Assembly: GCF_003850565.1 (NCBI RefSeq)
Contig: NZ_CP027706.1
Location: 5,270,001-5,334,000 of the forward strand
DNA: 64,000 nt
From: Pseudomonas sessilinigenes
GTDB lineage: Bacteria > Pseudomonadota > Gammaproteobacteria > Pseudomonadales > Pseudomonadaceae
Direction of reading: 5' to 3'
How positions within the stretch are numbered: position 1 is the stretch's first letter; the number at the start of each line of letters is the position of its first letter. A program made the position numbers and the translations under genes. The notes beneath the pieces are model-generated. The model ran no database searches. It was not told where the DNA came from and saw only the letters and a list, made by a program, of their open reading frames with translations. Below are positions 16,901-64,000 of the stretch, one piece after another.

Positions 16901-19900
16901 GACCAGTTCTTTGAGCTGGGCGGCCACTCGCTGCTGGCGGTGAAGTTGATCGAGCGCATGCGCCAGGTCGGCCTTAACGCCGATGTGGGCGTGCTGTTCG
17001 GTCAGCCGACCCTGGTCGCACTGGCGGCGGCCGCCGGCAACCGGCACCAGGTGCAGGTGCCCGTCAATGCCATTGCGCGCGACTGCCAACGCATCACCCC
17101 GGACATGCTGCCGCTGGTCCGGCTGCCCCAGGCGCAAATCGACACCCTGGTCGCCGGTATTCCCGGCGGTGTGGCCAACGTGCAGGACATCTACGCACTG
17201 GTGCCGTTGCAGGAAGGCATTCTGTTCCACCATCAGACCAGCACCGAGGGCGACCCCTATCTGCTGCAAGCGCTGCTGCGCATGGAGAGCCGCGAACGCC
17301 TTGTGGATTTCGTCGAAGCCCTGCAACAGGTGATCGCCCGTCACGACATACTGCGCACGTCGGTCGCCTGGCAAGGCCTGGACGAGCCGGTGCAAGTGGT
17401 CTGGCGTGAAGCCCGCCTGCCGGTGCAGGAGGTGCAACTGGCGCCTTCGGCCGAAGATCTGGCCACGCAGCTCACCCAACGCTTCAACCCGCGTCACACA
17501 CGCATGGACCTGACCCGTGCGCCCATGATGGCGTTGCATTTCGCCCAGGAACCGGGCGGTGAGGGCTGTGTAGCGGTGCTGCAGTTCCACCACCTGATCG
17601 ACGATGCCACCTCGCTGGCGCTGCTTGGCGCGGAAATCGAAGCCTGCCTGCAGGGGCGTGCTGACCAGTTGGCGCCTTCGGTGCCCTACCGTAATTATGT
17701 GGCGCAGACCCGGCTGGGCATCAGCCAGGCCGCCCATGAAGCGTTTTTCCGCGAGATGCTCGGCGACGTCGATGAACCGAGCCTGCCGTTCGGGCTTCAA
17801 GACGTGCAGGGCGATGGCCAGGGTATCCAGCAGGCCAACTTGCCGGTGGCCGCGCAACTGGGCCAGCGCCTGCGCGCCCAGGCACGGCGCCTGGGGGTCA
17901 GTAACGCCAGCCTGCATCATTTGGCCTGGGGCCAGGTGGTGGGGCACTTGTCCGGTCGCCGTGACGTGGTGTTCGGCACGGTATTGATGGGCCGCTTGAG
18001 CAGTGGCGAAGACGCCGACCGCGCCTTTGGCATGTTCATCAACACCTTGCCGTTGCGCGTCGAGGCGGGCGGTCAGGGCGTGGAAGACGCGCTGAAAACC
18101 ACCCACGCGCGCCTGGCTGCCTTGCTCGGCCACGAACACGCGCCGTTGTCCCTGGCCCAGCGTTGCAGCGGTGTGGCCGCGCCTACACCGTTGTTCAGCG
18201 CCTTGCTCAACTACCGGCACGCGGCAGTCGGCGCGCAGTCGGCCGAGGATGCGGGCAAAGCCTTGAAGTGGGCGGGCGTGGAAATGCTCGGCGGTGAAGA
18301 ACGCACCAATTTCCCGCTGATGCTGTCGGTGGACGACCTCGGCGACTCCTTTGGCCTGAGCGTGCAGGCGGTGGCGGGTGTCGACCCGCAACGCGTGTGC
18401 GGTTACATGCACCGCGTGCTGGAAGCCATTGCCGACGCGCTCGAGCACCAGCCGGAGCAAACCCTGCACAGCCTGGCGTTATTGCCCGATGCCGAACGGC
18501 AACACCTGCTGGGCGACTTCAACGCCTTCGACACCCAGTACCCGGCCACGGCCACCGTGCATGAGCTGTTCGAGGCCCAGGCGCTGCGCCAGCCTGACGC
18601 CATTGCGGTGACGTACGAAGGGCAGGCCTTGAGCTACGGCCAATTGAACAGCCTGGCCAACCGCATTGCCCATCGCCTGGTCGCAGATGGCATCGGTGTG
18701 AATGATCGTGTGGCGATCTGCGCCGAGCGCGGCCTGGAAATGGTTGCCGGGTTGCTGGCGATTCTCAAGGCGGGCGCGGGCTACGTGCCGCTGGACCCGG
18801 CCTATCCGGACGAACGCCTGGCCTACATGCTCCACGACAGCGCGCCCAAGGCGCTCTTGACCCAGCAATCCCTCATGCCGCGTTTCGGCACGGCGGGTGT
18901 GCCCACCTTGTGTCTGGACAACCCGGCCGGCATCGACGCACAACCTGCGCACAACCCACTGGTGCAAGGCCTGCAGGCTGACGCCCTGGCGTATGTGATC
19001 TACACCTCCGGCTCCACCGGCCAGCCCAAGGGCGTGGCCATGCCCCACGGGCCGCTGGTCAACCTCATGCAGTGGCAGATCGCGCAGACCGTGGCGGATG
19101 GCCGCGAGGCTCAGCGCACGTTGCAGTTTGCGGCACTGGGTTTTGACGTGGCATTCCAGGAAGTCTTCAGCACCCTGTGTGCCGGGGGTGAACTGTCGTT
19201 GATCCATGGTGATGTACGGCTTAACTTCCGCCAGCTGTTCCGTCATATCTGCGAGCAGCGCATCCAGCGTTTGTACCTGCCGTGCATCGCCTTGCAGGCG
19301 CTGGCAGAAGCGGTGGCCGATGAGCCGGAACTGGGCGCTCTGGCCTGTGCACTGAGCGATGTCATCACCGCGGGTGAGCAGCTGCGCATCAGCGCGCAGA
19401 TGCGTGCGTTGTTCCAGCGCCTGCCGGGTTGCCGCCTGCACAACCACTATGGCCCGACCGAATCCCACGTGACCACGGCCCTGACCCTGGACGGCGATGC
19501 CGCCTCATGGCCGGTGCTGCCGTCCATTGGCGTGCCGGTGGCGAACACCCGTATCTACCTGTTGGATGAACAGCTGCAGCCTGTACCGCTGGGCGTGGCC
19601 GGCGAAATCTACATCGGCGGCGTCTGCGTGGCGCGCGGCTATTTGCACCGTGATGAGCTCACGGCCGAGCGCTTTCTGGCCGACCCGTTCGTGGCGGGCG
19701 GGCGCCTGTACAAAACCGGTGACCTGGGGCGCTACCAGCCCAATGGTGAAATTGATTACCTGGGCCGCAACGACGGCCAGATCAAGATCCGCGGCTTTCG
19801 TGTGGAGCTGGGCGAAATTGAAGCGCGCCTGGCCCAGTACACCGGCATTCGCGATGCCGCGGTGCTGGTGCGTGAGGACAGCCCGGGTGACAAGCGCCTG

Positions 19901-64000: not shown

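Follow-up and report, generated by a model that had tools for sequence, protein, structure and literature searches.

The closest described relatives of the domains discussed here are the arthrofactin-type dual epimerization/condensation (E/C or C/E) domains of Pseudomonas lipopeptide synthetases. Their recognition mark is the second-His motif (PMC10531924; this and the other papers are cited from the parts available to us), and in their active-site motif HHxxxDH the extra His can be replaced by Ala or Asn as rarer variants (PMC10531924). The same paper compared 74 inactive with 394 active E/C domains and reported no striking difference in the second-His motif. Dehydrating condensation (C) domains of another kind, i.e., CmodAA (AmbE-C2, AlbB, and LgnD) and NocB M5C, are reported to read HHxxxDG or HHHxxxDG, some of them following a GGDSx carrier (PMC10880069), and dehydrobutyrine (Dhb) is listed as not predictable from genes (PMC9769872). 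Here we describe a stretch of 64,000 nucleotides (nt) of Pseudomonas sessilinigenes (NZ_CP027706.1, positions 5,270,001 to 5,334,000 of the forward strand; “the window”), in which 16 C domains are spread over three non-ribosomal peptide synthetase (NRPS) genes of a sessilin-type assembly line.

We consider it probable that a small active-site code in each dual E/C domain decides the fate of the residue supplied by the preceding module (the donor). Epimerization, and thus a D residue, would result where position 7 of HHxxxDH is His and the stretch ERTNYPL has its Glu, usually followed by Arg. Domains reading HHxxDD[AV]xS (DDA type), in which Glu-Arg is kept and His7 replaced, would cause dehydration of a preceding Thr or Ser to Dhb or dehydroalanine (Dha), and domains reading HHxxNDAxS (NDA type), or DH domains in which Glu has become Gly, would condense with the alpha carbon untouched, leaving an L residue. 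For the window this predicts Dhb1 and Dhb13 from C2 and C14, unchanged L-Val9 and L-Leu11 at C10 and C12, and D residues from the other E/C domains. The evidence is a correlation between sequence classes, placement in the E/C clade and published or family-inferred products; these products suggest a non-epimerizing role for C2, C10, C12, and C14, and dehydration by the DDA domains is inferred from their position.

Like the arthrofactin-type domains, the DAxS domains (DDA and NDA together) have the second-His motif, fall in the E/C clade and stand in modules without separate E domains; unlike them, they carry Ala or Val for His7, Asp or Asn at position 5 where Leu or Met is usual, and Ser at position 9 where Ala is usual. 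The NDA and Glu-to-Gly domains match sites published as inactive in the viscosin, orfamide, putisolvin, xantholysin, bananamide, fuscopeptin, and jessenipeptin families. The available parts of PMC10531924, unlike our analysis, tie neither Ala or Asn at position 7 nor the Glu of ERTNYPL to inactivity. The residue rule was not found stated in the literature searched; Goetze et al. (2019, on syringafactins) and supplements may contain part of it.

Condensation domains of the sessilin-type assembly line

The 14 internal domains C2 to C15 fall into two groups, as the sequence-only reading of the window had it: C2, C10, C12, and C14 carry HHxx[DN]DAxS and the other ten (C3-C9, C11, C13, and C15) HHxxxDHxA. 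The nucleotide positions that it gave for the four HH pairs were right within 3 nt. The domains are listed below, with the assumed state of the donor in brackets.

17153..18460, + strand: C2, E/C-derived, DDA type, HHLIDDATS at nt 17588, donor Thr1 (Dhb1)
43057..44364, + strand: C10, NDA type, HHLVNDAAS at nt 43492, donor Val9 (L); SIVSYPL, i.e., without the Glu-Arg of ERTNYPL
49393..50700, + strand: C12, NDA type, HHLVNDATS at nt 49828, donor Leu11 (L); GVDSYPL replaces ERTNYPL
56448..57755, + strand: C14, DDA type, HHLVDDATS at nt 56883, donor Thr13 (Dhb13); ERTNYPL kept
57585..57587, + strand: GAA codon (checked) in C14 for the ERTNYPL Glu, at +234 counted from the first His, proposed second switch
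20435..21742, + strand: C3, DHxA, donor Pro2 (D)
23657..24964, + strand: C4, DHxA, donor Ser3 (D)
26849..28156, + strand: C5, DHxA, donor Leu4 (D)
30050..31357, + strand: C6, DHxA, donor Val5 (D)
33451..34758, + strand: C7, DHxA, donor Gln6 (D)
36646..37953, + strand: C8, DHxA, donor Leu7 (D)
39853..41160, + strand: C9, DHxA, donor Val8 (D)
46207..47514, + strand: C11, DHxA, donor Gln10 (D)
53187..54494, + strand: C13, DHxA, donor Val12 (D)
59709..61016, + strand: C15, DHxA, donor Thr14 (D-allo-Thr)
63270..63296, + strand: active-site motif HHIASDGWS of C16, plain LCL domain, donor Ile15 (L)

The starter domain C1 reads HHIILDG and the plain LCL domain C16 reads HHIASDG; outside the window follow C17 (LCL) and C18 (DHxA). 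The HH and GD of the second-His motif HH[IL]xxxxGD are invariant in all 14 internal domains, the third position being other than I or L in C2 (HHQ) and C10 (HHV). By the HHxxxDH mark ten of the domains are dual E/C domains and C2, C10, C12, and C14, with DA, are not; neither are these four LCL domains, which are recognized by HHxxxDG and the absence of the second-His motif. The stretches AE[IV]EA[HC] and L-x-x-SVPYRNYV, held to be shared by the DAxS group, are indeed common to the four and absent from the other ten (0/10), but they do not generalize to the wider set: AE[IVLM]E[AG] occurs in 14/57 DDA, 11/46 NDA, and 0/504 DH domains, and SVPYR in 54/57, 20/46, and 25/504, respectively.

The DAxS domains were said to follow residues 1, 9, 11, and 13 and no others. 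Set against the tolaasin I configuration that we assume, all 17 donors fit, with the four non-His E/C domains on Dhb1, L-Val9, L-Leu11, and Dhb13, eleven DH domains on D residues, and two LCL domains on L-Ile15 and L-homoserine16 (Hse16). If the residues are as stated, four marks would land exactly on the four non-D residues among 15 E/C donors with a chance of 1/1365. The parts of this configuration found in print are Dhb1, D-Pro2, Dhb13, Ile15, Hse16, and D-2,4-diaminobutyric acid17 (D-Dab17) (PMC9026286, PMC12948218).

The assembly line itself was delimited from open reading frames and adenylation (A) domain codes:

13916..33157, + strand: NRPS gene A (SesA-like, 6413 amino acids), modules 1-6, Thr-Pro-Ser-Leu-Val-Gln
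33154..52554, + strand: NRPS gene B (SesB-like, 6466 amino acids), modules 7-12, Leu-Val-Val-Gln-Leu-Val
52932..64000, + strand: NRPS gene C (SesC-like), at least modules 13-16 begun in the window, continuing to module 18 (L004, L005)

With residue names from a code table that we take to be correct, the A codes of modules 1-18 read Thr-Pro-Ser-Leu-Val-Gln-Leu-Val-Val-Gln-Leu-Val-Thr-Thr-Ile-Hse-(not read)-Lys. Because the A6 code is identical to that of A10, read as Gln, the product is of the sessilin type; Gln at position 6 is what sets sessilin apart from tolaasin I (PMC9948697). Tolaasin served as the reference product for the sequence-only reading; the product of this cluster is not tolaasin I.

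In the 6.9-Mb genome, a degenerate DNA pattern corresponding approximately to HHx[VIM][DN]DAx[ST] is matched exactly five times (backward control: 0), i.e., C2, C10, C12, C14, and C2 of a second lipopeptide cluster. A class-wide scan with this pattern matched 2 of 369 genomes, the window's own and G613 (L158). The second cluster, at 2.26-2.29 Mb (L006-L007, G000:C1:2255000-2294700), has the orfamide module order 2+4+4 with HHLVNDATS in C2, LCL domains at C8 and C9, and DH domains in the remainder, a pattern that agrees residue by residue with the orfamide configuration published in 2022.

Position 7 and the configuration of the preceding residue

The rule was tried on 55 cluster sets and 196 proteins. 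The 55 sets yielded 565 C domains, 431 of them E/C-like, with His at position 7 in 341, Ala in 80, Asn in 5, Val in 4, and Glu in 1. In 11 clusters with an assignable product family, the non-His domains stand on non-D residues in 15 of 15 cases (6 dehydro, 9 L) and never on D, as had been expected of DAxS domains, and they still do so in 8 of 8 when the tolaasin family is removed. DH domains precede a D residue in 85 of 90 cases, an L residue in 4, and Gly in 1. The strict converse, that DHxA means D, has to be rejected because these four DHxA domains follow published L residues, in the viscosinamide, MDN-0066, putisolvin, and xantholysin types. LCL domains stand on L 22 times and on D once; the single case, C19 of the fuscopeptin-type line after D-Dab18 (L143-L144, G400), is one for which the residue code gives no explanation, and D-Dab18 of fuscopeptin is described as hard to explain (PMC9679282).

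The fits are position by position. L-Leu1 of viscosinamide, orfamide, putisolvin, and xantholysin goes with HHLVNDATS or HHLVNDAVS in C2, D-Leu1 of the amphisin types with HHLAMDHIA. The fuscopeptin-type line of G400 has non-His domains on Dhb1, L-Leu3, and Dhb14 alone, and the domain on L-Leu3, C4 (HHLINDATS), has been published as inactive (PMC9679282). C8 of P0017, which has the JesB layout and which we infer to be JesB, reads HHLVNDATS where JesB C8 is reported inactive (PMC9679282). C10 of the tolaasin F lines (P. costantinii and MWU15-20650) reads DHTA, versus NDAAS in sessilin. The code also makes predictions for individual lines, i.e., L at residues 1 and 4 of the product of L083 (G400, asplenin-like; C2 and C5) and L at Val3 for C4 of P0068 (SypA).

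Of the five named loci, three were used as sources (P. costantinii, P. salomonii, and Pseudomonas sp. MWU15-20650), together with clusters from further Pseudomonas genomes, whose product families were deduced from module number and A codes. Configurations were taken from PMC9431178 for orfamide, xantholysin, and MDN-0066, from the table of PMC3039948 for viscosinamide and the amphisin types (producer from PMC9948697), from PMC12948218 (L at 1 and 4) and the PMC3039948 table (other residues) for putisolvin, and from PMC9679282 for fuscopeptin; for orfamide and putisolvin, newer assignments based on nuclear magnetic resonance replaced older printed ones. The protein set started from the 120 best of 1992 scored homologues and was later enlarged by a second protein search. 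A non-redundant set drawn from both the clusters and the proteins retained 773 of 1277 domains after removal of near-copies (95%) and rows with <300 aligned residues, a step that also took out both kinds of DD exception discussed below and that was likewise applied in ranking alignment columns between classes; NDELS was put in a class “other” (25 rows).

Starter and G-type (LCL) domains were excluded from the E/C counts and Gly9 of fuscopeptin from the D/L counts, and the xantholysin-type line was counted without its last module. G330 is in the 11-cluster comparison but outside the second-site fit; G221 is in both, and outside the tree-change count of the published set. The tolaasin line of P. 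costantinii consists of four contigs ordered by homology and not joined, and two mycin-type loci gave only two modules each and were uninformative. The tolaasin contig of P. salomonii (L024, G002 contig C16) shows modules 10-12 and then module 6, probably an assembly artefact in repeats, and L024 was left out of the D/L counts for this suspicious order.

Dehydration, position 5, and the glutamate of ERTNYPL

The sequence-only reading had treated the DAxS domains as one subtype that has lost epimerization. This was rejected because Asp versus Asn at position 5 divides the domains by donor, the DDA domains standing at dehydrated Ser or Thr and the NDA domains at plain L residues, with more than one change on the tree. 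In the 55 sets, the donors of 42 DD[AV]xS domains are Thr (37) and Ser (5), whereas those of 38 NDAxS domains are Leu (33), Val (3), Pro (1), and Glx (1), with no Ser or Thr. Among the 120 best of 1992 proteins, 65 DD[AV] domains have Thr (46), Ser (16), or Ala (1) as donor (2 unread), and none of 37 NDA domains has Ser or Thr (two codes unnamed). In five lines of the corpeptin type, DD[AV] is confined to the places after Thr1, Thr8, Ser12, and Thr17, and corpeptin has Dhb at 1, 8, 12, and 17 (PMC3039948); two further lines of this type have DD[AV] after Thr1, Thr8, and Thr17, and Gly at 12 followed by an LCL domain. In the SP25-type line, DD[AV] follows Thr1, 10, 12, and 17, which are the Dhb places in the table of PMC3039948.

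It could be argued that the donor decides, the Thr or Leu of certain A-T units being dehydrated or left L while the C motif merely co-evolved. In the non-redundant set the donors of DD[AV] domains are indeed always Ser or Thr (59/59, versus 0/48 for NDA), but the same donor meets different outcomes: Thr precedes a DH domain 72 times and a DD domain 49 times, and Leu1 is L before NDA (viscosinamide, orfamide) and D before DH (amphisin types). Because Thr followed by DH is so common, the donor alone does not decide, and we regard this explanation as quite improbable.

A further possibility is that Dhb arises through a separate dehydratase or spontaneously after assembly, so that DDA would be an epimerization-off mark at Thr or Ser. 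Dehydration by an E/C-derived domain has, to our knowledge, not been assayed, and Asp versus Asn needs few tree changes, which would both suit this idea. Against it, DDA and not NDA is found at Dhb and Dha positions, and the DDA domains keep the Glu-Arg pair that NDA domains have mostly lost (non-redundant set: Glu in 58/59 and Arg in 59/59 DD[AV], versus 15/48 and 5/48 NDA domains). Dehydration is, moreover, known for other C domains (PMC10880069). This explanation seems, on balance, unlikely. The DDA domains of the window differ from CmodAA and NocB M5C in reading HHxxDDAxS and in their E/C ancestry, as judged from the 184-domain tree described below, and they do not follow a GGDSx carrier, all 15 carriers found by pattern in the window reading GGHSL. 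A possible dehydro site outside Pseudomonas is HHLIDDNSS after a Thr module, among GDH and SDH domains, in P0075 (Mycoavidus sp. HKI).

The DH domains on published L residues, which occur in four families, prompted a search for further class differences. The second site was found post hoc, with only four L cases, by ranking alignment columns between classes, which pointed to the ERTNYPL stretch, and by subsequent inspection: in 4 of 4 DH domains on L, Gly replaces the Glu just before Arg, at +234 from the first His. Among 83 DH domains with assigned configuration, +234 ranks first of 2435 column-residue tests, with Gly in 4/4 L and 2/79 D and Glu in 0/4 L and 77/79 D cases (p 8e-6, about 0.02 after Bonferroni correction; next best 0.0018). 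Combining both sites over 97 domains of 10 clusters, the residue is D in 77 of 77 cases where His7 and Glu are intact and non-D in 18 of 20 where either is lost.

Beyond this fit, C6 of P0096, a protein named pseudodesmin synthetase (D-Leu5), has Glu and the tanniamide-type line G352 has Gly at Leu5, tanniamide having L-Leu in the helix body (PMC12948218). P0133 of P. costantinii (viscosinamide, L-Leu5) also has Gly but belongs to the same system as one already in the fit. C6 of viscosin-type B proteins (T-V-L, T-I-L) has Glu 7 and Gly 68 times, most of these proteins being without a linkable published structure. In 62 of 62 C6 domains of T-V-L, T-I-L, and T-L-L B proteins with HY in the second-His motif, Gly is present at +234, and eight T-V-L proteins have Gly alongside an intact HH. 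The second-His motif was rejected as a sufficient marker, as D residues, too, are found with domains in which it is damaged, examples being LH in C3 of G343 and C5 of tolaasin F.

Descent of the domains and meaning of the proposed residue code

A tree of 184 chosen domains was built with the motif columns removed, rows with <330 aligned residues and near-copies excluded, and six LCL domains kept. All DAxS domains lie within the E/C clade, as the sequence-only reading had supposed, but not through one event: position 7 requires at least 7 switches between His and non-His on this tree. The DDA domains at Dhb1 form a clade of their own beside the C3 domains that follow Pro2, and the later DDA and NDA domains another. 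That the DAxS domains are LCL domains resembling E/C, an idea to which their L or dehydro residues would lend themselves, was already disfavoured and is very improbable indeed, as they possess the second-His motif and are nested in the E/C clade, from which LCL domains are separated with support 100.

A more serious alternative, doubtful in our view yet the strongest of those considered, is that the residues are lineage tags, i.e., that the DAxS domains descend from a few domains that lost epimerization from another cause (fold, docking, or gating), the motif hitchhiking. NDA has one main clade (23 rows, support 100), many columns differ between the classes, and all four published-set lines with an NDA C2 show damage to the second-His motif of that domain, as does the fuscopeptin-type C4. 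On the other hand, positions 5, 7, and 9 are tightly linked although the classes were defined by 5 and 7 only (Asp or Asn at 5 in 0/341 DH domains; Ser at 9 in 80/80 DD[AV]/NDA versus 4/341 DH domains), the SP25-type line has, after Val21, an NDA domain that groups with DH domains, and Glu to Gly arises in otherwise ordinary DH domains of several families.

The C10 domains of sessilin and tolaasin F fall in different clades, and the site seems, therefore, to have been altered by domain replacement and not by point change. C5 of G272 (L113-L114, module 5, Leu donor, DH) shows 50-80% identity with the DDA domain C9 of its own line in the first half and 72-97% in the second, and its counterpart in G346 has the same second half; it resembles a mosaic in which the second half is DDA-like, possibly through recombination inside the domain. 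Structure models of C14 and C13 reached a mean predicted local distance difference test score (pLDDT) of 80 and 77, from 14-row alignments, and fold comparison matched C domains generally.

A number of points weigh against a code in the residues themselves. The D/L string of tolaasin I that we applied to the window's donors is largely an assumption on our part. Two D-assigned domains carry Gly at +234, C4 of tolaasin F, for which D-Ser3 was taken over from tolaasin I, and C3 of a line of the lokisin type in which the first gene is broken. Outside the non-redundant count, the partial protein P0047 has a DDA domain after Ala and G113 has NDELS after Thr; P0129 of Xanthomonas cucurbitae has HHLVDDAAT domains that lack the ERTNYPL Glu, one after Thr and two after Leu, and the Pseudomonas residue code seems not to extend to this protein. 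In all four lines of the syringafactin type, Leu1 is followed by DN and Leu2 by DATA; for both residues the table of PMC3039948 prints D while its text says that the configurations were not determined. The older printed L-Leu5 of orfamide and D-Leu1 and D at 4 of putisolvin (PMC3039948 table) would contradict the rule.

For tolaasin F, compared with tolaasin I and sessilin, the difference is given as “d-Val9 versus l-Val9 and l-Ile15 versus l-Leu15” (PMC9948697). By their codes, A15 of P. costantinii takes Leu and A15 of sessilin Ile, and tolaasin I has Ile15 (PMC9026286), so one clause must stand in reversed order and the owner of D-Val9 is ambiguous. In our view this, too, counts against the code. 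The rule at C10 fits with the L-Val9 that we assume for tolaasin I; the opposite reading of PMC9948697 would fail both compounds.

The number of independent events is also small. Non-His needs only 2 changes in the published set, and the split between DDA and NDA yields three independent pairs, of which two are concordant and one shows no difference in donor class. Pairs differing in D/non-D number 3 on supported branches (2.9 concordant on average, median p 0.25), and pairs differing in genotype 4, of which 2.7 are concordant, 1.3 show no difference and none is opposite, significance being unreachable. The strength of the case lies in the position-by-position fits in unlike families; the counts are large, the events few.

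With respect to the surroundings of the locus, phospholipase C-like (3000-5189, - strand) and neutral ceramidase-like (6458-8524, - strand) genes, identified with Pfam, adjoin the cluster, and beyond the latter lie an outer-membrane efflux gene (9130-10569, - strand) and a LuxR-type regulator (10632-11447, - strand). Plasmid and phage searches added nothing, and NCBIfam gave no family above its cut-off. The exception G113 (L125-L128, G113:C1:2396468-2475768) is an unusual tolaasin-like line, Pro-Gln-Ser-Leu-Leu-Gln-Thr-Glu..., with five NDA domains and HHLINDELS after Thr.

Mechanistically, the Glu-Arg pair may take part in removal of the alpha proton, needed for epimerization and dehydration alike, His7 may be needed for reprotonation from the other face, and Asp at position 5 may help the beta-hydroxyl to leave. 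The fuller proposal, that a compact code of His7, Asp or Asn at position 5 and Glu-Arg writes D, L, or dehydro residues in Pseudomonas lipopeptides and that the DDA domains are E/C-derived dehydrating C domains, separate in origin from CmodAA and NocB and reusing the alpha-proton chemistry of epimerization, is put forward tentatively, as it falls somewhat short of being probable.

Predicting D, L, or dehydro residues from sequence is called an unresolved question in the available parts of papers from 2022-2023. The proposal would separate alpha-proton removal from reprotonation in a type of domain of which no structure was known to a 2023 paper, according to its available parts (PMC10531924). 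If the code holds, a handful of residues could be put to the test in a purified domain, the genes of many clusters would reveal configuration and dehydration, and earlier assignments could be revisited.

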